Origin: Oscillospiraceae bacterium
GTDB lineage: Bacteria > Bacillota_A > Clostridia > Oscillospirales > Oscillospiraceae
Assembly: GCA_017936985.1 (NCBI GenBank)
Contig: JAGBEM010000128.1
Coordinates: 1 to 14,162 of the forward strand
Reading direction: 5' to 3'
DNA length: 14,162 nt
Shown: positions 1,673 through 13,921 of the stretch, piece by piece
How positions within the stretch are numbered: position 1 is the first letter of the stretch
Layout of the letters: the number at the start of each line of letters is the position of its first letter
The notes under the pieces: model-generated
The model's database searches: none
What the model saw: only the letters and a program-made list of their open reading frames with translations
What the model was told of the DNA's origin: nothing
Translations under genes and position numbers: made by a program

Positions 1673-1701
1673 TTGACACATTCATTAACCGGTGCTATGA
1701 T
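1673..1701 (+). promoter_or_regulatory. Sigma-A promoter of the ABC exporter leader
   Basis: A perfect -35 TTGACA (1673-1678) is followed by a 17-base spacer and TATGAT (1696-1701), one mismatch from TATAAT. TG at 1693-1694 adds an extended -10. Transcription should start near 1708, just before the ribosome binding site of the leader ORF. This is among the strongest promoter matches in the window, which suits a gene kept off by termination rather than by weak initiation. Confidence 0.88.
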
Positions 1702-1734
1702 ACTGGTAAATTTTGAAAGAAAGGAGTGAAGCAT

Positions 1735-1800
1735 ATGTCCATCAACATGAATATCACAACGAATAGAAGCTTTGCTCCTTTGAGGTCGATCCAGGCATAG
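1735..1800 (+). CDS. 21-residue leader peptide of the ABC exporter attenuator
   Basis: A small ORF: ATG at 1735, TAG at 1798-1800, preceded by AAGGAG (1721-1726) at 8 bases spacing. It lies directly between a strong promoter and an intrinsic terminator upstream of the exporter genes. The peptide begins MSINMNITTN and ends PLRSIQA; it has no signal sequence and no run of one amino acid, so it is not an amino-acid-starvation leader of the trp or his kind. Codons 11-15 (Arg-Ser-Phe-Ala-Pro) coincide with the RNA strand that can pair with the terminator's 5' arm, which ties translation of the ORF to termination. By analogy with BmrB of B. subtilis, its likely job is to sense slowed ribosomes, for instance under a translation inhibitor. 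A separate function as a free peptide cannot be excluded. Confidence 0.72.
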   Translation: MSINMNITTNRSFAPLRSIQA

Positions 1801-1838
1801 TTATGCCATGGGTGTGTATTTTCTGGGCGCAGGCTTCT
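1765..1838 (+). promoter_or_regulatory. Candidate antiterminator pairing
   Basis: AGAAGCTTTGCTCC (1765-1778) can pair with GGGCGCAGGCTTCT (1825-1838): six Watson-Crick pairs (1765-1770 with 1838-1833), then seven more including two G-U pairs, interrupted by two single-base bulges, for 13 pairs in 14 positions. This would occupy the entire 5' arm and loop of the terminator at 1825-1848, so the two structures exclude each other. A smaller hairpin lies in the intervening loop: CCAGGCAT (1791-1798) with ATGCC-A-TGG (1803-1811), holding the leader stop codon at its tip. The pairing was read by eye; the energies are not computed. Confidence 0.62.
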
Positions 1839-1855
1839 GCCTGCGCCCTTTTTTT
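1825..1855 (+). terminator. Intrinsic terminator / attenuator in the exporter leader
   Basis: GGGCGCAGGC (1825-1834), loop TTCT, GCCTGCGCCC (1839-1848): a perfect 10-bp GC-rich stem followed by seven Ts (1849-1855). It stands 25 bases after the leader-peptide stop and 78 bases before the first exporter gene. No second promoter is evident between it and that gene, so exporter transcripts from 1673-1701 must pass through it. Confidence 0.92.
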
Positions 1856-1932
1856 GCGCTTTGCAGGCAATTTCTTTTGCAGACTGACCCACCTGTAAAA
1901 GTATGCACATATCAAGAAACGGAGAGTAAAAA

Positions 1933-3759
1933 ATGAAACCACATACCCCCAATGCCGCAAAGAGGCAAACCTTTACTCTTCTGTGGCAATTCCTGAAAGG
2001 AGCAAAACGCTATTTTCTGATCAGTGTTCTGGCTGCCGGCATTACCGCCCTGGCAGATATGCTCCAACCCCAGATCATCCGCGCCGCTGTGGACTGCGCT
2101 ATCAGCGGTGAAGAAGGCGACTTCCCAGCCTTCATTATGGATCTGGTAAACCGCATCGGCGGTTTTGACTATCTGGGTCAAAATCTGTGGATCATGGCAC
2201 TAGCAGTCATCATCGTGGCAGCCTTCCAGGTCATCTCCCAGTATCTGTTCCGGGTGTTCAACACCATGGCATCGGAAACCCTGGTCAAAACCATGCGCGA
2301 CCGGCTGTTTTCCCACATCCAACATCTCCCCTTCTCCTGGCACATGAAGAACCGCACCGGCGACATCATCCAGCGCTGTACATCAGACATCGACACTACC
2401 AAAAACTTCCTGTCTGAGCAGCTGACCTCCATTTTCCGCATTGTCCTTCTTTTGGTGCTGTCGATCACCTTCATGTCCTCCATGCATCCTTTATTGACCC
2501 TGATCGCACTGATCCCAACCCCTGTAGTCCTGATCTATTCCTTCCGCTTTCACAAAAAGGTCCATGACGGTTTTATGGACTGCGACGAAAACGAAGGTAA
2601 ACTTTCTGCCATGGCCCAGGAAAATCTTACAGGCGTCCGGGTAGTCCGGGCCTTTGGCCAGGAGCGTTCCGAGATCGATAAATTTAAAAAGCAGAACGAC
2701 CACTACACTCTGCTCTGGGAGAAAATGGCAAAGATCATGTCCCGGTTCTGGAGCACCTCCGATGTGCTGTCCGGAATCCAGGTCATGCTAGTGGTGGTAT
2801 TCGGCGCTGTTTTCTGTGTAAACGGCAGCCTCAGCGAAGGCGAATATATCGCATTCATCTCTTACAACGCCCAACTGGTCTGGCCGATTCGTATGCTGGG
2901 ACGCATGATCTCTGAAATGAGCAAGGCCGGCGTTTCCATCGACCGGGTGGCCTACATCATGAACTCCCCCATTGAGCAGGACGAACCCGACGCGATCGAC
3001 GCGCCCATGGACGGCGACATCTGCTTTGAGCATGTAAATTTTGCTTACGACAATGCCCCCCAGCTGCTCCACGACATCAGCTTCACTATGAAAGCCGGCA
3101 CTACCCTGGGCATCCTGGGCGGCACCGGAAGCGGTAAATCTACGCTAATGCTGCTGCTGGATAAGCTGTACCTGCTGCCGGAAAACAGCGGCAGAATCAC
3201 CATCGGCGGTACAGATATTCGAAACATCCGCACGCAGCATCTGCGCCGGAACATCGGCATGGTGCTCCAGGAGCCCTACCTTTTCTCCCGGACCATCGCT
3301 GAAAACATCGGTATCGCTTCTGCGGAAATGGACATGGAAGCCATCCGCTCCGCCGCAGCTGCAGCTGCTCTGGACGAAACCGTCACCTCCTTTGCCCAGG
3401 GCTATGACACAGTGGTGGGCGAACGGGGCGTGACTCTCTCCGGCGGCCAGAAGCAGCGTGCAGCCATCGCCCGGATGCTGACCAACGACACCCCCATCAT
3501 GATTTTTGACGATTCCCTGTCCGCAGTGGATACCCAAACCGACGCAAAGATCCGCCAGGCCATTTCCAAACGCTTTGGCAAGGCCAGCGTGATCCTGATC
3601 TCTCACCGCATTACCACCCTCTCTGCCGCAGACAAGATCCTTGTCCTTGACCGGGGCCGTATCGTGGAGGAAGGCACTCACGAGCAGCTGAAGTCAGCCG
3701 GCGGCATCTACCAGAAGATCTACGAGACCCAGAGCGGTTCCAAGGAGGTGACTGCCTAA
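1933..3759 (+). CDS. Heterodimeric ABC exporter subunit with degenerate ATP site (BmrC-like)
   Basis: A 608-residue half-transporter of the type IV (ABCB-like) exporter fold: an N-terminal six-helix membrane domain (about residues 25-320) and a C-terminal ATPase. In the ATPase are Walker A GGTGSGKST (396-404), Q-loop Gln446, a canonical signature LSGGQ (502-506), Walker B IMIFDD (522-527) and switch His558. The residue after Walker B, normally the catalytic glutamate, is Asp527. That is the hallmark of the inactive-site partner in heterodimers such as BmrC/BmrD, LmrC/LmrD and TM287/TM288. Its intact signature completes the partner's active site. The start is ATG 1933, with GGAGAG at 1921-1926. 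The gene lies behind an attenuator, consistent with inducible drug or peptide efflux; the substrate cannot be read from sequence. Its stop overlaps the next start by one base, so the subunits are made together. Confidence 0.93.
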   Translation: MKPHTPNAAKRQTFTLLWQFLKGAKRYFLISVLAAGITALADMLQPQIIRAAVDCAISGEEGDFPAFIMDLVNRIGGFDYLGQNLWIMALAVIIVAAFQVISQYLFRVFNTMASETLVKTMRDRLFSHIQHLPFSWHMKNRTGDIIQRCTSDIDTTKNFLSEQLTSIFRIVLLLVLSITFMSSMHPLLTLIALIPTPVVLIYSFRFHKKVHDGFMDCDENEGKLSAMAQENLTGVRVVRAFGQERSEIDKFKKQNDHYTLLWEKMAKIMSRFWSTSDVLSGIQVMLVVVFGAVFCVNGSLSEGEYIAFISYNAQLVWPIRMLGRMISEMSKAGVSIDRVAYIMNSPIEQDEPDAIDAPMDGDICFEHVNFAYDNAPQLLHDISFTMKAGTTLGILGGTGSGKSTLMLLLDKLYLLPENSGRITIGGTDIRNIRTQHLRRNIGMVLQEPYLFSRTIAENIGIASAEMDMEAIRSAAAAAALDETVTSFAQGYDTVVGERGVTLSGGQKQRAAIARMLTNDTPIMIFDDSLSAVDTQTDAKIRQAISKRFGKASVILISHRITTLSAADKILVLDRGRIVEEGTHEQLKSAGGIYQKIYETQSGSKEVTA

Positions 3760-5564
3760 TGGAAGCAAATGAAACCAAACACTTAAAATTCTTTGGTATT
3801 GGTAAGATCCTTCCCTTCCTTGCCAAAGTAAAAAATCAAATATTCATCATGATCTTTTTCGGTCTGATGGGCAGCGCTACCGACATCATTCTCCCTTTGT
3901 TTCAGCGCTACGCCTTAGACCACTTCATCGGCTTGGGCATCTTTGATACCGTTGTGATCTTTGTGGTGCTGTATCTGTTGACCATCCTTGTAGCAGCTGT
4001 GTCCAACTACATTTCCTGCGCCCTGGCCACTATAGTGGAAATGCGTGTCAACCGGCAGCTTCGGCAGACCGGCTTTGAACACCTGCAAACACTGTCCTTT
4101 TCCTACTTCAACCAAAATAGTGTAGGCTATATCCATGCCCGTCTCATGAGCGACACCTCCCGGATCGGCAGTCTGGTCAGCTGGACGCTGGTAGACTGCG
4201 TCTGGCGCATTTCCTACCTCATCGGTGCTATTGTAGTGATGATCGTGCTGAACCCCGGTCTGGCAGCTATGGTACTTTCCATCCTACCCCTTTTGGTTGT
4301 CCTGTTTGCCATCTTCCAGAAAAAGCTGATCAAGGTCAACCGGGAAGTCCGGGAAGTCAACTCCCGGATCACCAGCAATTTTAACGAAGGCATCACCGGC
4401 GCAAAGACCATTAAATCCCTGGCTATTGAAGAAAAAATGGAGCAACGCTTCATGGATGAAACACAAAATATGCGTAAAAAGACCATGGAGGCCTCCCGGC
4501 TTCGCGGCCTGTTTGCCGGCACCATGAATTTTGCTTCAAGCGTAGCCTTGGCCATCGTCCTGTGGAAAGGCGGCTATATCGCCGCAGACCAGATCGGTAC
4601 ATTTTCCGTATTCATGTCCTACGCTATGGGCATGATGGAGCCTTTGCGCTGGCTGGTGGACATCATTTCCGACCTGATTACTACCCAGGTCAACATTGAG
4701 CGCTTCACCAATCTGCTAGCGGTAAAATCCGATGTCATCGACACCCCCGAAGTCATCGCAAAATATGGCGACAGCCTCGATCCCAAAAAGGAAAACTGGG
4801 AACCCATTCGCGGTGACATTGAATTCCGGGATGTAACCTTCCAGTATCCGGATGGCGAGGAGACAGTTTTGGAAAATTTTTCCCTAAAAGTCCCCTTCGG
4901 CACCCACCTGGCCATTGTCGGCGAGACCGGTGCAGGCAAATCCACCCTTGTCAATCTGGTCTGCCGGTTTTATGAGCCTACCCAGGGTCAGGTACTCATC
5001 GATGGCCGGGATGCCCGGGAGCGCTCCCAGCTGTGGCTCCACAGCGCCATCGGCTATGTACTGCAGACTCCCCACCTGTTCTCCGGCACAGTCCGGGAAA
5101 ACCTGCTCATGGGAAACCCGGACGCAACAGAAGAACAGATTTGGAACGCCATCCGCGCCGTATCTGCCGAGGATGTGATCGCTCACCTGGAAAACGGTCT
5201 GGATACCGATGTGGGTGAAGGCGGCGACCTGCTTTCCACCGGTGAAAAGCAGTTGATCTCCTTTGCCCGGGCTGTTCTGGCGGATCCCCAGATCCTGATT
5301 CTGGACGAAGCTACCGCCTCTGTAGATACCATGACGGAAGCCAAGATCCAAGCCGCCATGGAAAGTGTCACAGACGGAAGAACCTCCCTCATGATCGCCC
5401 ACAGGCTTTCCACCGTCCGCAACGCCGATATGATCCTGGTGGTGAAAGACGGCAAGATCGTGGAGCAAGGCACCCATCCCCAACTGCTGCAGCTCCGGGG
5501 CTACTACTACGAGCTCTACACCCGCCAGTACGAAGACGAAACCACTGCACAAATCCTGGCATAA
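3759..5564 (+). CDS. Heterodimeric ABC exporter subunit with catalytic glutamate (BmrD-like)
   Basis: A 601-residue half-transporter with the same layout as its neighbour: six membrane helices (about residues 20-310) and an ATPase with Walker A GETGAGKST (388-396), Q-loop Gln436, Walker B ILILDE (512-517) with catalytic Glu517, and switch His548. Its signature is LSTGE (492-496) rather than LSGGQ. The substitution sits in the same composite site as the partner's Asp527, so the pair would form one consensus and one degenerate ATP site, as expected for an asymmetric heterodimer. ATG 3759 shares one base with the upstream TAA (TAATG), and AAGGAGGTG (3742-3750) lies just before it, favouring translational coupling. 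Transport direction (export) follows from the fused membrane-ATPase architecture and the absence of a binding protein; substrate unknown. Confidence 0.93.
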   Translation: MEANETKHLKFFGIGKILPFLAKVKNQIFIMIFFGLMGSATDIILPLFQRYALDHFIGLGIFDTVVIFVVLYLLTILVAAVSNYISCALATIVEMRVNRQLRQTGFEHLQTLSFSYFNQNSVGYIHARLMSDTSRIGSLVSWTLVDCVWRISYLIGAIVVMIVLNPGLAAMVLSILPLLVVLFAIFQKKLIKVNREVREVNSRITSNFNEGITGAKTIKSLAIEEKMEQRFMDETQNMRKKTMEASRLRGLFAGTMNFASSVALAIVLWKGGYIAADQIGTFSVFMSYAMGMMEPLRWLVDIISDLITTQVNIERFTNLLAVKSDVIDTPEVIAKYGDSLDPKKENWEPIRGDIEFRDVTFQYPDGEETVLENFSLKVPFGTHLAIVGETGAGKSTLVNLVCRFYEPTQGQVLIDGRDARERSQLWLHSAIGYVLQTPHLFSGTVRENLLMGNPDATEEQIWNAIRAVSAEDVIAHLENGLDTDVGEGGDLLSTGEKQLISFARAVLADPQILILDEATASVDTMTEAKIQAAMESVTDGRTSLMIAHRLSTVRNADMILVVKDGKIVEQGTHPQLLQLRGYYYELYTRQYEDETTAQILA

Positions 5565-5610: not shown

Positions 5611-7734
5611 TCACTTATATTGATCCACCGAGCTTACTACCTGCTTTACCGCAGAACCCGGCACATAGCCATCTTCCGTGATAGTCAGCGTTACGCTGTA
5701 ATCGCTGCAGGTGTAGTTTTCTTCCACACGCATCTGGCGATACAGCTTATAGTTGACCTCATAGAAGCGCTGATTGCCCTCGCCGGTGATCAACTGATTG
5801 AACAGCTTCTCGCTGGTGGGCCAGAATGCGATGGTCGGATCGATGAAATCGTACAGTTCCGTTGTGGCACCGATATTGGCATGGTGTGCCACCTGGACCA
5901 TATCGCTCTTCAGATACTCGCCGTAGCGGTCAGATATGATATCGGAAGCCTTGTCACAGGCATCGCCAAGGAAAAGTGCTGTAGTATTGTTGGCAGTGAT
6001 CTTGAACACAGAAGAAGCGTCATTGAAGTAACGCAGGGTTCTGGGATACATATCCTCCACCGTGTACAGCACTTCGACTTCCACACCGTACAATTCCATT
6101 TTCATACCGGTATGCAAGGAAGTCGCCTTCACAGTAACCGAACCGGGATTCTTGGAGTTATAGCCAACAGACTCCGGCACCACGCACTCATAGTAATTCT
6201 CTATGGTCACCTTCTGTCCATAGCTCTCGCAGAACTTCTGATATACTGCAATGTGATCCGCGTGAGAATGGGTAATAAACCAGCCGCGGATAATGATCTG
6301 GCCATCCTCCCGCTTATTCAGCTGATTCAGCAAATTCCAGATCCGCACATGGTCCTTGTTGGCAGTGGAAGAACTGGAGTTCGTGGAACTACCGCTGTCA
6401 ATCAGCAGGAAAGAACCATCCTCCAGGGTAATCACATAACCCATACCGCCGGAATTTGTGTTAAAATCAAGCTGCAGCTGGGTGATCTGTACATCTGTGA
6501 CCTTCTTGTAGCTTTCTCCACCGGCACCGGGGTAGGTAACCTTGCTCAGGTTGCCGACGATCAGACGGGTCTCATCCGTTGCATGGGCGTAGTACACATG
6601 GATCACAGTTTTGTCATTCATGTAGGTGTTGGAGATCAGCACGCCGGACACCTCATTGGACATATGTACCTTGTAGCCATTGGCCTCCAGCTTGCTGCAG
6701 TAGGCACGGTACTGCTCCTCATTGGTGTTGGTGATGTAATACTGCAGTTCGTCACCAAAACACTCGGAAGTGCCTCTGACGATACCGCCGTCATAGGCAG
6801 GAAATGCGCTGATCCATTTGGCATTGCTTCTGGTGCTTGCCTCACCCAGACAAAGCGTCATATCCGCCTTGTTGTCGTTGATCAGCTCTACAAAATATTC
6901 GCATGCCATCACGTTGGCAGCGGTACTGTGGCCTGCCACGACGATAGAACCGTCCGCATAGCCTACGCCGTACTGGGTGTATCCCACCTGAGAGATCACT
7001 TTTTTATAGGCAGAACGGTTGGTCTTGCCCACAAGGATCTCCGGACCGGATTCCGGCTGATCATCACTCTTGACCGTGACCTTCCCACCGGTCAGCTTTT
7101 CCAAGGCTGCCTGGATATCCAGAGCAAGCTGCACCTCATAATCAATGCCGCCGTTCTCATAGCTGACCTCCGGCTCTGTGGGTTTGCCATTATTATCGTC
7201 CAGGTTCTCGCTGTAAACGATACTGAAATTGCAGATACTGGCTGCAGCCAGCTTCACAGGGGTATAGGTCTTCACCACATCCAGTGTTTCATCCATCAGA
7301 ATGTACTTTTCACCGGACTTTTCCTGTACATAGTTCTTGATAAACCACTGCACAGCATCCGCACTGATGGCATCGCTTGTACCAGCCAGTACCAGCTTGC
7401 TGCCGCTGAACTTCACAGCAAAACCGTTTTCACCAACAGCTTCCAGCGCCTTGGTGCTTTCTGTTCTGTTGGTCTTGCCGATCAGGATTTCTTTGGACTT
7501 ATCACTGGCTGCTACTTCTTCATCGGTTTTCACCGTTGGGGTAACACCGGTATGATTAGTAATATAGTTTACCAGCACTCGGCTTTGCTGCTTCTCCTCC
7601 GCACCGGCATCCTTGGAAAGGATGATGGTATAATCAGAGATTTTCTCACCGGGTATATTTGCATCTCCATTACATGCAGTAAAGCAAGGCAGCACGATCA
7701 CAAGACACAGTAAAACAAGCAGAAATTTCTTCAT
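5611..7734 (-). CDS. Surface lipoprotein with duplicated N-terminal module and ComEC-like metallo-beta-lactamase fold
   Basis: A 707-residue predicted lipoprotein: lysines at 2-3, a hydrophobic stretch, and FTAC with the lipidated cysteine at 21. Two related modules follow (about 33-137 and 168-284). Each carries EIL-I/V-GKTNR (82-90 and 232-240, exactly 150 residues apart) and, further on, a hydrophobic strand ending in AG (VLAG, VVAG). They recall the small alpha/beta domain found ahead of glycoside hydrolase catalytic domains, but that is a guess. The C-terminal part (about 420-640) is a metallo-hydrolase domain: LIDSG, THSHADH with His489, His491, Asp493 and His494, then GDACD with Asp591, and VAHHA with His617. 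The last motif resembles the KVxHHGS motif of ComEC/Rec2 hydrolase domains. ATG 7734 has GGAAAGGAG upstream and follows the NPCBM gene by 21 bases, so they are co-transcribed. Substrate unknown; it should act outside the membrane. Confidence 0.85.
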   Translation of the reverse strand: MKKFLLVLLCLVIVLPCFTACNGDANIPGEKISDYTIILSKDAGAEEKQQSRVLVNYITNHTGVTPTVKTDEEVAASDKSKEILIGKTNRTESTKALEAVGENGFAVKFSGSKLVLAGTSDAISADAVQWFIKNYVQEKSGEKYILMDETLDVVKTYTPVKLAAASICNFSIVYSENLDDNNGKPTEPEVSYENGGIDYEVQLALDIQAALEKLTGGKVTVKSDDQPESGPEILVGKTNRSAYKKVISQVGYTQYGVGYADGSIVVAGHSTAANVMACEYFVELINDNKADMTLCLGEASTRSNAKWISAFPAYDGGIVRGTSECFGDELQYYITNTNEEQYRAYCSKLEANGYKVHMSNEVSGVLISNTYMNDKTVIHVYYAHATDETRLIVGNLSKVTYPGAGGESYKKVTDVQITQLQLDFNTNSGGMGYVITLEDGSFLLIDSGSSTNSSSSTANKDHVRIWNLLNQLNKREDGQIIIRGWFITHSHADHIAVYQKFCESYGQKVTIENYYECVVPESVGYNSKNPGSVTVKATSLHTGMKMELYGVEVEVLYTVEDMYPRTLRYFNDASSVFKITANNTTALFLGDACDKASDIISDRYGEYLKSDMVQVAHHANIGATTELYDFIDPTIAFWPTSEKLFNQLITGEGNQRFYEVNYKLYRQMRVEENYTCSDYSVTLTITEDGYVPGSAVKQVVSSVDQYK

Positions 7735-7755
7735 AATCTTACTCCTTTCCTGAAA

Positions 7756-9363
7756 TCAGCTTTTCTTCTTCCGCTTAACGACCAGCACAACGCCCACAGC
7801 AAGCACCACCAGAACCACCGCTGCTACGCCGATCACGATACCCAAAGTGCCGTCACTGTCCTCTTTCTCAATCGGCTTAAACAGGTCTACGGTAGGAATG
7901 TTGGCAGGATCCTCTGTAGCGTATTCCTCGTAAGGATCATATTCCTTATGGGAGGTTTTCTCCGCATTGGCATCTGCTTTAAAAATGCACGGATTGAGCC
8001 ATGCACTGGCACTGGAACTATTGGAGGTTGTGGATGTAATTACTACCAACCGAAGGGTCTTGACACCGGTAATGTCCACATTGAACTCGCCGATGCTGGC
8101 CAGCACGATCTCCTCAGAGTTTGCAACATGCTTAAACTTTCCGTCACCGTAATCCGCAAACACCTGGAAGTATACACCTGCAGATGCCGTATTGGTCAGA
8201 CCAACGCAGGAATAGAAGGTGTCGCACTGGTATTCTCCATTCGGATCTGTATAAACAGACACATCCAGATCAATGTAGGTCTGCTCCTGTTTTGCCTTGG
8301 GATGGGTACCAAAGCCCTTATCAAAGGAGATATTGCCACCAACCAGGAAATTCTTGGCAGACTTTTTGAACGGGCCATTAATGGTGGCGCCGTATTCATT
8401 CATTGTGGTGGAATCCGTATAGTAGTAGTAATCACCGCCGGGCACACCATCTGTCCTTGCGATCTTCTCCTCAGGGATCAGATCCATCACGCTGTAAACG
8501 GTATTCACGCCAGCCTTCCAGGGACCAAATGGCTTTGTGAAAGGATTATCCTTGCTCCACAGCAGAATCTCATAGTTATCGGTAGCCTCGTAAGTCTGCA
8601 TCTCACCCGGCTGCTTGTTGGTGGGTGTAGCCGGCTTTGTGGCAGCAGTATCTGCCTTGAAAATGCAGGGAGACAACCATGCGCAGGCAGAGCTGTCATT
8701 GGACATAGTTGCGGTGATAACTACCAACCGCAGCGTCTTTACGCCGGCAATATCCACATTGAATTCACCGCGCTTCTTCTGAGTGATCACAGAAGAGTTA
8801 GCAATGTGCTTGTATTTTCCGTCGCCGTAGTCGGCAAACACCTGGAAATACACACCGGGAGAAGCCGTATTGGTCAGCGCAACACAGGCATAGAAGGTGT
8901 CACACTGATACTCACCGCTGGCATCGGTGTATTTAGATACATCAATATTGATATAAACCTCTGCCTGATTTTTCTTGGGATGGGTACCGAAGCCCTCTTC
9001 AAAGGTAACGCCGTTACCCAAAGCAAAGCCCTGGCCGGAGTTTTTGTAAGGGCCATTGATCGCCACGCCGAACTGGTTGTTGGTGGTGGAATCCTTATAG
9101 TAGTTGTAGTCACCACTGGAGAAGCCCTGTGTTTTCACGATCTGATCTGCCGGAATCACATTCAGAAGGCTGTATACCTTATTCGTACCGGCTTTCCAGG
9201 CGCCATAAGGCTTTTGCTCCGGATTTGTGCTGCTGGCTACGATTTCTTCATAGTTTGCAGTCGGCTCGTACTTCTTGGCCTGCGCTTCATCTGCCGCTAC
9301 CGGAACAGCAAGCGCAAGCACCAGCGCCAAAAAGAACGATAAAACCCTAATTGTCTGCTTCAT
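7756..9363 (-). CDS. Membrane-anchored surface protein with two tandem NPCBM-like modules
   Basis: A 535-residue secreted protein. The chosen start, ATG at 9363, has AAGGAG 8 bases upstream; the in-frame ATG at 9408 lies at the predicted transcription start and is rejected. A signal peptide (cleavage near residue 24, VPVAA) is followed by two 207-residue repeats, residues 32-238 and 258-464. Both contain GFGTHPK, GEYQCDTFY, LTNTAS, GVYFQVFADYGDGK, GEFNV and GVKTLRLVVIT. This order matches the NPCBM carbohydrate-binding family, whose hallmark is a kG(L/I/F)GTH motif followed by strands reading xVxFxVxxDG. After a charged linker comes one hydrophobic helix (about 508-529) and the tail KRKKKS, a stop-transfer anchor without an LPXTG sorting motif. 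No catalytic domain is seen, so it is likely a glycan-binding surface protein. The NPCBM assignment is from motifs; the ligand is unknown. Confidence 0.87.
   Translation of the reverse strand: MKQTIRVLSFFLALVLALAVPVAADEAQAKKYEPTANYEEIVASSTNPEQKPYGAWKAGTNKVYSLLNVIPADQIVKTQGFSSGDYNYYKDSTTNNQFGVAINGPYKNSGQGFALGNGVTFEEGFGTHPKKNQAEVYINIDVSKYTDASGEYQCDTFYACVALTNTASPGVYFQVFADYGDGKYKHIANSSVITQKKRGEFNVDIAGVKTLRLVVITATMSNDSSACAWLSPCIFKADTAATKPATPTNKQPGEMQTYEATDNYEILLWSKDNPFTKPFGPWKAGVNTVYSVMDLIPEEKIARTDGVPGGDYYYYTDSTTMNEYGATINGPFKKSAKNFLVGGNISFDKGFGTHPKAKQEQTYIDLDVSVYTDPNGEYQCDTFYSCVGLTNTASAGVYFQVFADYGDGKFKHVANSEEIVLASIGEFNVDITGVKTLRLVVITSTTSNSSSASAWLNPCIFKADANAEKTSHKEYDPYEEYATEDPANIPTVDLFKPIEKEDSDGTLGIVIGVAAVVLVVLAVGVVLVVKRKKKS
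7972..8592 (-). repeat. Second (C-terminal) copy of the 621-bp NPCBM-module repeat
   Basis: Encodes residues 258-464, from YEATDNYE to CIFKAD. It is the same length as the copy at 8650-9270 and aligns to it without gaps. Identity is about 60-65% of residues by hand count, concentrated in the last half. Nearly identical DNA persists locally, for example cttgggatgggtacc in both copies. Confidence 0.9.
8650..9270 (-). repeat. First (N-terminal) copy of the 621-bp NPCBM-module repeat
   Basis: Encodes residues 32-238, from YEPTANYE to CIFKAD, separated from the second copy by a 19-residue linker rich in Thr, Pro and Gln. The equal length and shared ends show an in-frame duplication of a complete module, later diverged mainly in its first half. 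Confidence 0.9.
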
Positions 9364-9420
9364 GGTGTTTTCTCCTTCATGATAGAATTCGCAGGAATAA
9401 CGCTCCATTGTTACTATTAC

Positions 9421-9449
9421 ACTTTACGATAGGGCCAAACACTTGTCAA
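9421..9449 (-). promoter_or_regulatory. Sigma-A promoter of the NPCBM / metallo-hydrolase unit
   Basis: Read leftward: TTGACA (9449-9444), a 17-base spacer, then TAAAGT (9426-9421), four of six matches to the -10 consensus. Transcription would begin near 9414, about 50 bases before ATG 9363. It sits in the 121-base gap after the FAD oxidoreductase gene, the only sizeable gap in the leftward cluster, so the two surface-protein genes can be expressed separately. I see no clear terminator in the gap, so readthrough from the upstream operon also remains possible. Confidence 0.75.
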
Positions 9450-9484
9450 TCCAATCACGAAATTTGACCAAAGGTTCACCATCC

Positions 9485-11281
9485 TTAGATAAAGTCCGCC
9501 GCAAACAATCGAACCTCTTCCGCGCCATTGGTCGCAAGCCACTGAATACGAATTTCCTTGGCGGAAATATTCAGTGGAATGGTGACATGGGATAGGTAGT
9601 TGTTCTCAACCCGGCAGACCTCTGCTCCATCAGCATAGATCACGAAGTCCTTGACGATGGTATTTGCCACCCGGACGGGCACAAAGTCCTTGCCGGTATG
9701 CAGCTTCATGGCAAAGACACGCATCTTCATATTGTCAGATACACTGCGGCGGGAATAATCCGGGTCAAAACGCAGGCGAAGAGAACCGATTTGCTCTGCT
9801 TCGTCGAAGGTAAAGCTCAAGCTCCCGCCCACCTGCTGAACAATGCCGTTTTCTCCGGCGATTTTACGGGGACGCTCAATGCCATTGAATAGAACCTCAC
9901 GCTCTGCATCGGAAATATTCAGCTTGGCACGGAGGGTCTGCTGGCTGACCGTACGGGCAATATGGGGCAGGAATACACCATCTTCCAACAGGGCGCTTTG
10001 CAGTTCCTTCAGGTGGTCGGTATAGACACCTCTGGGGCTGCAGCCGTACTGCAGGGCAATAGCCGCGCCGGTACCGCAGGCCTGTCCCAGCAGCGCACAG
10101 GTCGCCATGACGCGGCAGGACGAAAGTGCCGCGTGGGTCACGCTGATGTTTCTGCCTGCGAACATCAAATTCTCGATATTCTTTGAATACAACGCCCGGT
10201 AAGGAATACCGTAGGGCTCTTTCAAAGGAATCATATAGGAGGGTGCATTGCTGTACGGATTCTTCTCCATACCGTAGGGGTTATGGTCATCCAACGGCCA
10301 GCCGCCGTAGGCAACTTCGTCCTCAAAATGACCGCCGGCAATGACATCATGTTCCGTGACGATCACATCACCAATGTACCGACGGGACTCCCGCTTGCCG
10401 GGCAGGAAGCCAACCCACTCCAGATCCCAGTTTTCTTTGCCGTGGTCGCCGTGGTTTTTGATGTGATCCCACACGCCGTAAATATTGGCAAGCAATCTGT
10501 CACGGAGTCGATCGGCATCGTGGATGGTATCCATATTGCCGCCCAGCTCCACCCACCATAGGTTACATTTGCTGGTGCCTACATTGTGATCACGGGTCTG
10601 GTCGCCCATAGCCTTGATCGCATTGCCGGAGAAGGACTCGTCGGTAGGATAGTAAGACGCAAAGGCAGGCGGTGTGAACTTCACCGGATGATCGGTTTCC
10701 CGGGCAGCAAGAATAATGGACATACCCATGGTACAGCTGTCCTCGGTTTCCTGCGCCATGGTTTCACCGAATTCATCCTTGGATTCCCGGCCATGACGAT
10801 ACTCCGCGCCAGTCAGAGGCGCCAGAATACTGTCGCCGGAGCAATCCATAAAAATGTCCGCTTCCACTGTGAACCATGTGTAAGTAGTGCTCTGCCACGC
10901 GGTGACCGATTGGATTTTTGTGCCGTTCATCTTTGCATCGGAGCAAGAGCAGTTCAGAAGGATTTGGATATTGGGATTATCACGAAGCATACCGTAAAGA
11001 GTCGCATCAAAAAGAGAATGTACTAAGGTCGGATTGCCGTGGATATTCCGCTCCTCCAGCTCGCTGATCAAACCGGACTCCCGGTTAAAAATACCCTGCG
11101 CCCCCCGGACCCACATCCGGATCTCGGAAGAGGCATTGCCGCCCAGCATAGGACGATCTTGAATTAAGATGACCTTTGTACCACGGCGCGCCGCTGCCAG
11201 CGCAGCAAAAGAGCCTGCCAGACCACCACCGATGACGCACAACTGGGTGCTTAGTTTTTCGTGTCGCAAATTGGAATTCAT
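9485..11281 (-). CDS. FAD-dependent oxidoreductase (FAD_oxidored, PF12831-like)
   Basis: A 598-residue flavoprotein with no signal peptide, so cytoplasmic. The N-terminal Rossmann motif is CVIGGGLAG (GxGxxG, Gly18-Gly23), with VILIQDRPMLGGNASSEIR after it; this GGNASSEIR stretch is typical of the FAD_oxidored family. A second FAD-contacting segment lies near residue 370: LMFAGRNISVTHAALSSCR, then GQACGTGAA. The last roughly 110 residues look like a beta-sandwich (SLSFTFDEAEQIGSLRLRFD, YLSHVTIPLNI). Members occur in sugar and glycan catabolic clusters, but few have known substrates. Its ATG overlaps the TGA of the hydrolase gene upstream (ATGA, 11278-11281), implying translational coupling. 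Here it could oxidise a sugar or sugar-acid intermediate; that is inferred from neighbours only. Confidence 0.87.
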   Translation of the reverse strand: MNSNLRHEKLSTQLCVIGGGLAGSFAALAAARRGTKVILIQDRPMLGGNASSEIRMWVRGAQGIFNRESGLISELEERNIHGNPTLVHSLFDATLYGMLRDNPNIQILLNCSCSDAKMNGTKIQSVTAWQSTTYTWFTVEADIFMDCSGDSILAPLTGAEYRHGRESKDEFGETMAQETEDSCTMGMSIILAARETDHPVKFTPPAFASYYPTDESFSGNAIKAMGDQTRDHNVGTSKCNLWWVELGGNMDTIHDADRLRDRLLANIYGVWDHIKNHGDHGKENWDLEWVGFLPGKRESRRYIGDVIVTEHDVIAGGHFEDEVAYGGWPLDDHNPYGMEKNPYSNAPSYMIPLKEPYGIPYRALYSKNIENLMFAGRNISVTHAALSSCRVMATCALLGQACGTGAAIALQYGCSPRGVYTDHLKELQSALLEDGVFLPHIARTVSQQTLRAKLNISDAEREVLFNGIERPRKIAGENGIVQQVGGSLSFTFDEAEQIGSLRLRFDPDYSRRSVSDNMKMRVFAMKLHTGKDFVPVRVANTIVKDFVIYADGAEVCRVENNYLSHVTIPLNISAKEIRIQWLATNGAEEVRLFAADFI

Positions 11282-11970
11282 ATTGTATCCTCCTTGAAAG
11301 CAATTTCCCGGTAGATTTCGGGAACAATCTTATTGTCGAAAGCAAAACAATTGGGGTCGATCGTATCAAACAATCCCACATGAAAAGGTACGGCATATTT
11401 TGCTCCGGTGCGCTTTGCGAAGATGGCAGCGTCGGTAGCATTCATATTGTTGCCAAGGCCGTTGATGGGTAGAAATACCGCCTTCAACGGCAGTTCCGGC
11501 AGACTGGCAAATACCGATTCATTGTAAAGGGTGTCACCTGTAATGTAATAATTCTTCTCTTCTGCGCTGATGATCACGCCGATGGCACAAGGATCAGAAT
11601 GTTCCGCCTTGACTGCGGTAAACCGAACAGTGTCTTCTGTCCACACCGTTCCGCAGTTAAACAGCACATAATTGCTGCCGCCACCGAACTTCCTGACTTC
11701 CTGCCAACCGCCGTTTGGTACAAGCACCAGGCAGCTTGCCTCCTCCGTCAGATAGTGTTTCAGCGTTTCCTTGTCCAGATGATCCAAATGATTGTGGGTG
11801 ATCACGATCACATCTGGCTTTATCTGCAGAAAGCGCTCCTCCACAGGAACTCTGCGGTAATTCTGCGGCTCAAAATTCTTGACATTGTCCGACAGATACG
11901 GATCAATCAAAATGATTTTGCCACCGGTTTCCATCAGCAGTCCTGCTTGTCCAAGCCAAGTAATTTTCAT
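11278..11970 (-). CDS. UlaG-type metallo-beta-lactamase-fold hydrolase, candidate sugar lactonase
   Basis: A 230-residue cytoplasmic metallo-hydrolase. It starts MKITWLGQAG, the usual first strand of the UlaG/YtnP branch. The metal ligands are visible: THNHLDH with His59, His61, Asp63 and His64, then His124 (AEHSDP), Asp146 (ITGDT) and His197 (PFHVG). UlaG hydrolyses L-ascorbate-6-phosphate lactone, and relatives open other lactones or phosphoesters. Placed between a dehydrogenase and an acid-sugar dehydratase, opening of a sugar lactone is the most economical role, but nothing in the sequence fixes the substrate. AGAGGT, overlapping the end of the upstream gene, serves as ribosome binding site; one base separates the two genes. 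Confidence 0.85.
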   Translation of the reverse strand: MKITWLGQAGLLMETGGKIILIDPYLSDNVKNFEPQNYRRVPVEERFLQIKPDVIVITHNHLDHLDKETLKHYLTEEASCLVLVPNGGWQEVRKFGGGSNYVLFNCGTVWTEDTVRFTAVKAEHSDPCAIGVIISAEEKNYYITGDTLYNESVFASLPELPLKAVFLPINGLGNNMNATDAAIFAKRTGAKYAVPFHVGLFDTIDPNCFAFDNKIVPEIYREIAFKEDTI

Positions 11971-11971
11971 A

Positions 11972-12751
11972 TCATACCTCTGGGATCATGGGATACAGCT
12001 GAATATTATTGCCCCCGTCCACCACCAGTTCTGCGCCAGTGGTGTTCCGGGCGAAGGCAGCGAAATAATAGACCGCATCGGCAATATCTGCACCCACCGC
12101 CACATCTCCGATGGGCGTATACCGGGACGGAACCTTTGCGTAAAAGTCCGGATTTTTGTCCCATCTGTCAGTTTTGATCATGCCGGGCAATACCGCGTTG
12201 ACCCGGATATTGTATTTTCCCAGATCCAGCGCCAGCGCCCGCATCATGCCCAGCTGACCACCTTTGGAGGCAATATATGCCACCCGGTCAGGAATCGCTC
12301 TGTATGCGGTGTTGGAGTTTACGCACACGATATTGCCGCCACCGTGTTCCTTCATTCTTTTGGCAGCATGTTCTGCCATGCAGTAATTCCAAACCACATT
12401 GGTGTTGATGACCTTCATAAAATCCGTCAGTGGATTTTCAAAAACCTTCATTCCCAGTCCTTGATCGGCAGCATTCAGCACCAGGGTTTCCACAAAAACG
12501 CCTTGCGCATCCAGATCCGCAAACATCTGCCCAACCGCCGCCTCGTCAACGGTTCTTTCATCCACCAGAGAACAGATGGCGTAACCCCGGATCTTCACAT
12601 TTGGGAACTGCGCTTCATATTTGCTCTGTGCGGCATTTACCTTCTGCGGATCTCTGCCGGTGAAGATCACATCATAGCCTTCCGATGCAAATTTATGAAC
12701 GATGTCCACACCTGTATTGATGCAGGCACCGGTGATCAGTACAGTCTTCAT
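11972..12751 (-). CDS. Short-chain dehydrogenase/reductase (SDR)
   Basis: A 259-residue classical SDR. The cofactor motif is TGACINTG (residues 7-14); the family consensus TGxxxGxG has glycine where this has Asn12. Also present are LNAA, catalytic Ser146, and Tyr159/Lys163 in YIASK. Near the C terminus, TGAELVVDGG is the usual final motif. The reaction would be NAD(P)-linked oxidation of a hydroxyl, here perhaps a sugar to its lactone or a sugar acid to a keto acid. I place the start at ATG 12751 rather than the in-frame GTG at 12757, because GAGGTG lies 5 bases before the ATG but runs into the GTG. Nine bases separate it from the dehydratase stop. Substrate and cofactor preference are not determined. 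Confidence 0.9.
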   Translation of the reverse strand: MKTVLITGACINTGVDIVHKFASEGYDVIFTGRDPQKVNAAQSKYEAQFPNVKIRGYAICSLVDERTVDEAAVGQMFADLDAQGVFVETLVLNAADQGLGMKVFENPLTDFMKVINTNVVWNYCMAEHAAKRMKEHGGGNIVCVNSNTAYRAIPDRVAYIASKGGQLGMMRALALDLGKYNIRVNAVLPGMIKTDRWDKNPDFYAKVPSRYTPIGDVAVGADIADAVYYFAAFARNTTGAELVVDGGNNIQLYPMIPEV

Positions 12752-12760
12752 ACGCACACC

Positions 12761-13921
12761 TCAGAAATAGAATTCCGTTTTTGCCGGGCGAATGTCCGTC
12801 AGAGCACCGGTATAATGGCGCAGATTGTGCTCCACATACGGATGCTTCAAACATTCTTCCTCGTTCAGTTCAATACCCAAACCCGGCTTGTTACCGATCT
12901 TCATCCGTCCGTTTTCGTATTCCAGACTTTCGTTGGTAATAAATCTTCTGTAATCCACATCACTGTACATGATCTCCAAAATGCAGAAATTGGGACAGCA
13001 GGCAGCGATCTGTAAGGTCGCCGCATTGGCGATAGGACCGGAAGGATTGTGGGGCGCAAAAGGAATGTAGTTTGCCTCAGCCTGGGCGGCGATCTTCTTC
13101 AGTTCCATAATACCGCCGGCATGGGAAATATCCGGCTGGATGTAGTCCGCAGCTCTGCGGCGAAACAGTTCGTTGTAGTCAAATCTTGTATACAGCCGCT
13201 CACCTGCAGAGATGGCCACCGGAGATTTTTCGCGTACCGCCGCCAGCGCTTCCAGATTGTTGGGCGGCACCGGCTCCTCCAGGAACATGGGCTTAAAGGG
13301 AGCAACCTCCTGGGCGATCTTAATGCCCGTGGGAACATCAAACCGGCCATGGGCCTCGATCAGCAAATCCACCTCATTGCCAACCGCCTCTCTGACTGCG
13401 GCGATGCAACGGATCGCCTTATCCAGATCCTTGTTGGAGATCTGCAGATAGTTCTTGCCAAAGGGATCCCACTTCATAGCGGTAACACCGCGTTTAACAG
13501 CTTCGGCTGCCTTCTGGCCAAATTCTTCCGGCTCTTTTGCCCCCGCAAACCAGCCGTTGATGTAGATGCGGCAATCCTCATTGACCTTGCCGCCCAGCAG
13601 CTGATACACAGGAACATTCAGTGACTTGCCCAAAATATCCCAAAGTGCCATCTCCACAGCAGACAGGGCGCTCATCAGCACCGCACCGCCGCGCCAGTAG
13701 GCATCCCGGTAAATATCGTGATAATGCTTTTCGATCTGCCGGGGATCTTTTCCTAAAAGATAACTCCGGATGTGCTCAATAGCTCCTACCAAGGCCTTCT
13801 CCTTGTACTCCAGAGTGCCCTCGCCCACACCGGTAATGCCCTCATCGGTGTAGACCTTCACAAACACCCAGTTGGTACGGAAGCAGTCAACAACAAAGGT
13901 TTTAATGTCTGTGATCTTCAT
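12761..13921 (-). CDS. Enolase-superfamily acid-sugar dehydratase (D-galactonate dehydratase-like)
   Basis: A 386-residue member of the mandelate racemase/enolase superfamily, with an N-terminal capping domain (about 1-125) and a TIM barrel. Active-site residues can be placed by motif: IEAHGRFD (Glu189, His191), LEEPVPP (Glu215), AGERLY (Glu241), APHNPSGP (His291) and ILEI (Glu316). These correspond with a constant offset of +6 to the Asp183, His185, Glu209, Glu235, His285 and Glu310 that I recall for E. coli DgoD, except that the first metal ligand is Glu instead of Asp. That supports dehydration of an acid sugar to a 2-keto-3-deoxy acid, but the substrate may differ from galactonate. RspA/ManD-type relatives are an alternative. 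AAGGAG precedes ATG 13921, and the gene follows an upstream ORF by 11 bases. Confidence 0.9.
   Translation of the reverse strand: MKITDIKTFVVDCFRTNWVFVKVYTDEGITGVGEGTLEYKEKALVGAIEHIRSYLLGKDPRQIEKHYHDIYRDAYWRGGAVLMSALSAVEMALWDILGKSLNVPVYQLLGGKVNEDCRIYINGWFAGAKEPEEFGQKAAEAVKRGVTAMKWDPFGKNYLQISNKDLDKAIRCIAAVREAVGNEVDLLIEAHGRFDVPTGIKIAQEVAPFKPMFLEEPVPPNNLEALAAVREKSPVAISAGERLYTRFDYNELFRRRAADYIQPDISHAGGIMELKKIAAQAEANYIPFAPHNPSGPIANAATLQIAACCPNFCILEIMYSDVDYRRFITNESLEYENGRMKIGNKPGLGIELNEEECLKHPYVEHNLRHYTGALTDIRPAKTEFYF

Follow-up and report, generated by a model that had tools for sequence, protein, structure and literature searches.

What decides whether RNA polymerase enters the ABC exporter operon at this locus? 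In the window, by which we mean the whole stretch of 14,162 nucleotides that was analyzed, a leader ORF that has a ribosome binding site of its own sits between a promoter and the gene of the first exporter subunit, and an intrinsic terminator precedes this gene. The features on which the argument depends are the following.

1673 to 1701, + strand: promoter, TTGACA-17-TATGAT with TG before the −10 (extended −10), 11 of 12 consensus matches
1720 to 1732, + strand: segment 1, the Shine–Dalgarno (SD) stretch of the leader ORF, AAAGGAGTGAAGC, which pairs with 1769–1781
1735 to 1800, + strand: leader ORF of 21 codons plus TAG, MSINMNITTNRSFAPLRSIQA, from the reading frame
1765 to 1781, + strand: segment 2, anti-SD (1769–1781) and antiterminator strand (1765–1779), codons R-S-F-A-P-L
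1789 to 1813, + strand: hairpin enclosing the stop codon, from folding; possible RNA polymerase pause hairpin
1825 to 1838, + strand: segment 3, 5′ arm and loop of the terminator, antiterminator partner of segment 2
1825 to 1855, + strand: intrinsic terminator, 10-bp stem (1825–1848) followed by seven Ts (1849–1855)
1933 to 3759, + strand: ABC exporter subunit 1, 608 amino acids, from profile match and structure relatives
3759 to 5564, + strand: ABC exporter subunit 2, 601 amino acids, from profile match and structure relatives

The initial annotation had described a promoter, an SD, a 21-codon ORF, and a 10-bp terminator with seven Ts, and all of them are present where it placed them. The SD core of the leader ORF is AAAGGAG (1720–1726), and the terminator starts 24 nt past the leader stop codon (ORF end at 1800, terminator start at 1825). 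A promoter scan of 1580–2000 gave two sites on the + strand, at 1673 and 1638, and no promoter-like site in 1856–1932, in keeping with the earlier proposal, which had no separate promoter between terminator and exporter. TTGACA is found in all nine leaders compared (L001–L007, L009, and L010) and TATGAT in seven of them, the −10 being different in L004 and L009. The leader (1708–1860) folds at −59.6 kcal/mol (z = −5.48), a value as low as which was reached by none of 200 shuffles.

In subunit 1 of the exporter, IFDDS presumably replaces the canonical Walker B glutamate; in subunit 2, we take ILDEA to be canonical and the signature, LSTGEKQ, to be altered. The combination of IFDDS and LSTGEKQ suggests a heterodimer with one degenerate ATP site. 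The best-scoring solved relatives of the subunits are full-length eukaryotic ABCB-type transporters, and the two-chain bacterial solved relatives include TM_0288, YheI/YheH, and 5mkk/6raf. Elsewhere in the window, positions 1–774 hold the 3′ part of a YchF-type ATPase gene that the window edge truncates (TIGR00092, 275.3 bits, slightly below the cut-off of 279.2). On the − strand, metallo-beta-lactamase-fold, FAD-dependent, short-chain dehydrogenase, and enolase-superfamily-like genes (names by eye) occupy 5611–13921 and face the exporter operon.

In the lowest-energy fold of the leader, 1720–1732 pairs with 1769–1781 inside the ORF over 13 bp. This SD:anti-SD helix (1:2) is the strongest element of the leader and lies far beyond chance, as none of 500 codon permutations of the ORF interior reaches it. 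The SD of the leader ORF is itself one strand of the switch, a point that the initial annotation, in which helix 1:2 does not appear, had overlooked. The second helix (2:3) appears upon folding RNA cut at 1838, where 1765–1779 pairs with 1825–1838 through 13 pairs, interrupted by one single-base bulge and one 1 × 1 mismatch. A pairing of 1765–1778 with 1825–1838 had been claimed before; it exists, but not as 14 continuous pairs. Because segment 2 can pair with either the SD or the terminator 5′ arm, it is contested, and the three helices exclude each other in turn. In the window alone, 2:3 is near chance (codon-permuted ORFs reach the pairing in 4.4% of cases and in 5.7% in a second run; p = 0.044 and 0.057), and the antiterminator therefore rests on comparative evidence.

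Constrained folding was used to place a ribosome at different positions of the ORF. Without a ribosome, the pair probability of 1:2 is 0.99 up to RNA end 1832 and 0.46 at 1838 (0.47 for 2:3), and the terminator forms thereafter. When 1717–1751 is covered, as by a ribosome at the start, 2:3 has a mean pair probability of 0.86–0.89 at RNA ends 1838–1845, which supports the earlier proposal that ribosomes stalled near the start of the ORF free the antiterminator strand. With codon 4 in the P site, 2:3 is at 0.88–0.89 (ends 1838–1842); it vanishes (0 at every length) when codon 7, codon 10, or A-P is placed there. The other inducing position proposed earlier, arrest at the ORF end beyond 1778, found little support. 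With the stop region covered, 2:3 is at 0.71 at end 1838 and at 0.10 at 1842, and 1:2 is favored (0.74–0.84) at the other eight of nine lengths. End-of-ORF arrest was set aside as the main inducing position on these values, and stalling there is predicted by the folding model to help only transiently. From end 1848 onward, the terminator wins in every scenario (3:4 about 1.0). Since the full-length RNA always favors the terminator, the switch must be kinetic, resting on a delay at the U tract.

We propose, at a probability of about 0.68, that this leader acts as a ribosome-mediated transcription attenuator with its own SD as one strand of the anti-antiterminator, and that the exporter is switched on when a ribosome is held at the start codon or the codons next to it. 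The switching, its kinetics, its signal, and the sensing of drugs we infer as follows. Four segments would pair as 1:2, 2:3, or 3:4. When no ribosome is on the leader, 1:2 would form, the SD would be hidden, and segment 3 would be free, so that terminator 3:4 keeps the exporter off. A freely translating ribosome would cover segment 2 as the terminator emerges, and 1:2 would reclose after its release, which also leaves the exporter off. A ribosome that is halted on the start codon or early in the ORF (to about codon 4) would cover segment 1. Segment 2 could then pair with the terminator 5′ arm once this is transcribed, and the delay of the terminator would allow polymerase to read through into the exporter. 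The signal is likely a slowing of initiation or of early elongation, for example, by antibiotics acting at these steps. An SD that serves as the sensor strand predicts that ribosomes held at the start turn the exporter on and that ribosomes on the anti-SD do not. The stop-codon hairpin (1789–1813) may pause the polymerase. Support for its fold is moderate: in 11 of 28 leaders, base-shuffled controls fold less well than the stop-codon region (p ≤ 0.05; window, p = 0.030), and the stop codon is enclosed in a hairpin in 27 leaders versus 26.3 expected from shuffles, which is no better than chance.

Sequence comparison indicates that the ORF and the three possible helices are retained in relatives and recur before other resistance-like genes. 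A scan of genome contigs with the first exporter subunit yielded 108 confirmed loci, of which 80 were kept; by title, they belong to assemblies of Oscillospiraceae, Clostridia, and the like, and many of these come from samples of ruminant gut. Covariance model R2, built from 32 leaders, matches 11 of these 80 loci at E ≤ 1.3e-10 (L001–L007, L009, L010, L067, and L073), and six more matches with E of 0.17–0.95 were left out of the count. The leader is present in nine of the 11 loci with at least 77% exporter identity. These 11 also include L008, whose exporter is 79% identical and has no such leader, and L075, whose upstream sequence is only 153 nt long. Whole genomes contributed further leaders (L094, L095, L096, and L099). 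In five ABC paralogues of the same genomes (L087, L088, and L090–L092; 33–35% identical; L089 left out), no such leader was seen by eye. The relatives support one part of the initial annotation, namely that a heterodimeric ABC exporter is preceded by an attenuator whose leader ORF is translated. In L010, the exporter gene starts about 250 nt past the terminator, and a long inverted repeat within 2753–3000 (GTAGGGGCGGATATTATCCGCCC and its complement, by eye) lies between the attenuator and the gene.

Alignment A1 comprises 13 leaders, namely the window and 12 relatives (L005 was left out as near-identical to L003). The 1:2 and 2:3 duplexes are each predicted in 13 of 13, at −16.7 to −25.7 and −13.6 to −20.9 kcal/mol, respectively, with the register sometimes shifted; a mutually exclusive antiterminator with one strand in the ORF is thus predicted in all 13 exporter leaders. 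For 1:2, 2:3, and 3:4, respectively, 82.2%, 91.1%, and 100% of the cells are paired (40–52%, 32–58%, and 33–59% in slid controls), and the covariation score is reached by 0, 2, and 0 of 500 shuffles. Such scores of related sequences may exceed shuffles without structure; both-side changes and further pair types are less prone to this. Shuffles gave both-side changes as high in 58, 315, and 0 of 500 cases and further pair types as high in 120, 371, and 34, which is not exceptional for 1:2 and 2:3. As these counts stand out for 3:4 alone, only the terminator clearly covaries in A1 by the stricter reading. Overall, covariation is strong for the terminator and modest for the other two helices. That of 1765–1778 with 1825–1838, which the earlier proposal had made a condition, shows in the score (reached by two of 500 shuffles) but not in the stricter counts.

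Changes were also placed by parsimony on the exporter-protein tree (one FastTree, midpoint root, no branch support values). Double compensatory, single pair-preserving, and pair-breaking events number 2, 12, and 14 for 1:2 (by columns), 2, 10, and 4 for 2:3, and 7, 6, and 0 for 3:4; the many pair-breaking events of 1:2 are due, in part, to register shifts. Both bases of pair 1766:1837 changed, from G-C to A-U, in two independent cases, one in the L007 lineage and one in the L009/L096 lineage. Because 1837 lies in the terminator loop, this change is not required by the terminator stem.

The partners were then compared over 28 leaders. From a set of 38, which does not include L134 and L145, six were dropped for a wrong or shifted ORF or for lack of a clear anti-SD (L131, L141, L142, L144, L149, and L152), as were the near-duplicate L096 and three in which the script found no terminator (L130, L132, and L135); in L125 and L128, the hairpin chosen by the script is doubtful. 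The mean energy of 1:2 is −18.67 with the own partner versus −16.03 with swapped partners (0 of 20,000 permutations as low), and that of 2:3 is −15.74 versus −14.61 (21 of 20,000). The own partner is the single best in only two of 28 rows for either helix. Helix 1:2 significantly beats codon-permuted ORFs in 25 of the 28 leaders, and 2:3 does so (p ≤ 0.05) in 12, being weak outside the exporter leaders. The SD:anti-SD helix is therefore a robust feature of the family, and the antiterminator is clear mainly in exporter leaders. In a wider alignment (A3) of 32 leaders, in which 1:2 and 3:4 were taken jointly, each of five measures was reached by 0 of 500 shuffles, the alignment having been fitted to the structure. 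L134, in which no leader ORF is clear, is part of both A3 and R2.

Leaders of this family also precede genes other than exporters, which the initial annotation had overlooked. Among 397 relatives of genome G001, model R1 found a match at E ≤ 0.01 in 70 genomes, weak ones included; among 397 relatives of G145, R2 gave 45 matches in 42 genomes at E ≤ 1e-6. A class-wide R2 search under strict filters (E ≤ 1e-4) matched one of 391 genomes, the center genome itself, and the recognizable sequence family is therefore narrow. Downstream of the leader, there is an exporter of the window type in 15 cases (by sequence) and a second kind of ABC exporter in 14 (L129 by Pfam, the rest by eye). GNAT proteins account for four (all by Pfam; that of L142 starts 325 nt past the leader), and S66 LD-carboxypeptidases for another four (L136 and L141 by Pfam, L143 and L163 by eye). 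GrpB, methyltransferase, phosphorylase, metallophosphoesterase, histidine phosphatase, and NUDIX-HIT genes were assigned by Pfam once each. Two further cases are an ABC ATPase (L134; NCBIfam relatives below the cut-off, leader ORF not clear) and a gene for which Pfam gave no match (L145; no leader ORF starting with ATG). Of the weaker matches, L149 (phosphorylase) and L152 (methyltransferase) repeat these categories, and L146 is without a Pfam match; the weak R2 matches L148, L151, L153, and L154, which have no leader ORF, were set aside. None of the nine downstream proteins scanned had an NCBIfam match above the cut-off (L134: best 25 of 176 families), and no known resistance family is thus confirmed among these nine. 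By these searches, the leader family is lineage-restricted and stands before several kinds of resistance-like gene.

A structure scan covered the upstream regions of the 80 loci, the window, L101, L102, and L105. It found an ORF, a terminator, and a strong SD:anti-SD helix in L024, L026, L058, and L059, which resemble one another (0 of 300 permutations each), as well as in L105 (p = 0.007) and L102 (p = 0.017), and a weak case in L101 (p = 0.087). Helix 2:3 is significant in L102 alone among these leaders (0.007; others, 0.08–0.54). Four other combinations were marginal or nonsignificant (L030, 0.05; L062, L065, and an internal start in L024, 0.63–0.94), the reverse-complement control produced one nonsignificant case, and the scan missed the known leader of L010. 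The leaders of L024, L026, L058, L059, L102, and L105 were not picked up by R1 or R2 where searched. The SD:anti-SD design may have several origins or may have changed past recognition.

More distant exporter homologues (60–70% identical) are preceded by a second, unrelated conserved leader RNA, which ends 17–145 nt upstream of the start (L018, L020, L025, L027, L028, L031, L034, L037, L038, L039, L064, and L069). It consists of ACATCGGAGGG...GGCYGGATAAGATGTCAGG...CCTGATGCTTGTCCRGCC and a U tract, with no ORF by eye, and its ACATC can pair with GATGT of the terminator arm. Four of its 17 predicted pairs have changes on both sides, and no Rfam gathering match was found in the seven of 12 loci searched. 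This RNA is a candidate riboswitch or attenuator.

A broader reading, which we hold tentatively and at somewhat under even odds, is that one leader architecture constitutes a transcription-factor-free regulon in a lineage of Oscillospiraceae-like gut bacteria. Two kinds of ABC exporter and at least eight further gene families would have acquired the SD-hiding attenuator, by its spread or by repeated origin, and any drug that slows early translation would switch on a whole set of protective genes, mostly unrecognized as resistance genes. Through a single recognizable leader family, unrelated, mostly uncharacterized genes of uncultured gut bacteria would be marked as probably responsive to translation stress, which would offer a sequence-based way of listing candidate protective genes.

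The leader ORF is probably translated, judging from its reading frame. Of the 38 leaders, whose ORFs were located by script, 32 have the anti-SD word (GCTCC or a close variant) in one common frame, two have it only out of frame, and four lack it, and the distance from ATG to anti-SD ranges from 36 to 60 nt; GCTCC proper is in frame in 29 of the 30 leaders having it. This keeping of the frame across length changes argues for translation. In L131, one of the four without the word, a wrong start was chosen by the script, and the longer ORF has the usual L-A-P. An alternative to the general slowing of early translation is that a drug or metabolite arrests the ribosome at specific residues of the growing leader peptide. 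Some selection on the peptide is possible, because most leaders encode A-P at the corresponding place, Arg precedes the stop codon in one subgroup, and 22 of 38 leaders have Leu as residue 2; the peptide may thus play a role. However, A-P is the anti-SD GCTCC read in frame; RNA pairing can account for it, and the kept frame is therefore no proof that the peptide sequence matters. A ribosome on A-P also covers segment 2, and the leader then folds without the antiterminator at any length. The N-terminal halves vary widely among the 38 leaders beyond residue 2. The C-terminal Arg-stop was rejected as a peptide signal, as the stop lies in a CCCG/CGGG hairpin in four of nine such leaders. We consider peptide-specific arrest unlikely.

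The terminator is stable (−23.2 kcal/mol in isolation) and could work alone, and 2:3 is near chance in the window by itself. It is thus conceivable that the terminator is fixed and partial and regulates nothing, the leader ORF and SD pairing merely tuning a basal level. That diverged exporter leaders have jointly kept the ORF, SD:anti-SD, and 2:3 speaks against this explanation and makes it distinctly improbable. The conserved structure upstream of transporters could also belong to a ligand-binding riboswitch with an incidental ORF. Against this, Rfam 15 gave no match at the gathering threshold in the window, L001, L004, L067, and L073 (the best sub-threshold match was SorY, 22.5 of the 111 bits required, E = 0.013), the reading frame is maintained over changes in ORF length, and conservation is concentrated in the SD, start, anti-SD, and terminator; a riboswitch is very improbable. 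Least credible is a tandem-codon attenuator for amino-acid starvation, because, despite a general architecture like that of trp-type attenuators and runs of three in three of 38 leaders (Asn in L096, Gly in L130, and Arg in L142), the longest run in the leader of the window is two (Thr-Thr), no run is common to the 38 leaders, and the genes identified downstream encode exporters and modifying enzymes and are not biosynthetic.

The ribosome-mediated attenuator with the SD as a switch strand can be compared with several known systems. No description of this leader was found in the open-access literature searched, which does not by itself prove absence, and two surveys of structured RNAs list other uORF motifs (PMC11109978, PMC8632094). 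At the level of a review description, the ermK and mef-mel attenuators are macrolide-responsive leaders of resistance genes in which a leader ORF and a drug-stalled ribosome prevent transcription termination, as proposed here (PMC5418344). The patAB leader of Streptococcus pneumoniae shares a terminator, predicted antiterminator and anti-antiterminator, and an ABC exporter pair with this one, and the term "leader peptide" is absent from the main text of that paper (PMC4319486). The bmrB-bmrCD operon of Bacillus subtilis likewise has an ABC exporter pair, a leader ORF, and predicted anti-antiterminator, antiterminator, and terminator; its induction by lincomycin needs translation, and its antiterminator is stated to be less favorable than the terminator, the same energetic order as in the folding of this leader (PMC4191407). 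In bmrB, the terminator is part of the leader coding sequence, whereas here it starts 24 nt past the stop codon, and the words Shine–Dalgarno and sequester are absent from the main text of that report (PMC4191407). In vmlR of B. subtilis, which responds to drugs that stall initiating ribosomes, the stalled ribosome is described as blocking the anti-antiterminator so that the antiterminator forms, and uORF sequence variants of other species work (PMC9226507). The folding of the present leader with its start covered is in agreement with such a block. Both leaders have a uORF, an anti-antiterminator, an antiterminator, and a terminator, but the vmlR uORF has three codons and an SD that is single-stranded before SL-1, whereas here the ORF has 21 codons and the SD is the anti-antiterminator strand (PMC9226507). 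vmlR encodes an ABC-F protein and the present gene an exporter, and the likeness compared here is one of logic (PMC9226507). Among the systems compared, bmrB-bmrCD (PMC4191407) and patAB (PMC4319486) are thus nearest in target gene, and vmlR (PMC9226507) is nearest in logic.
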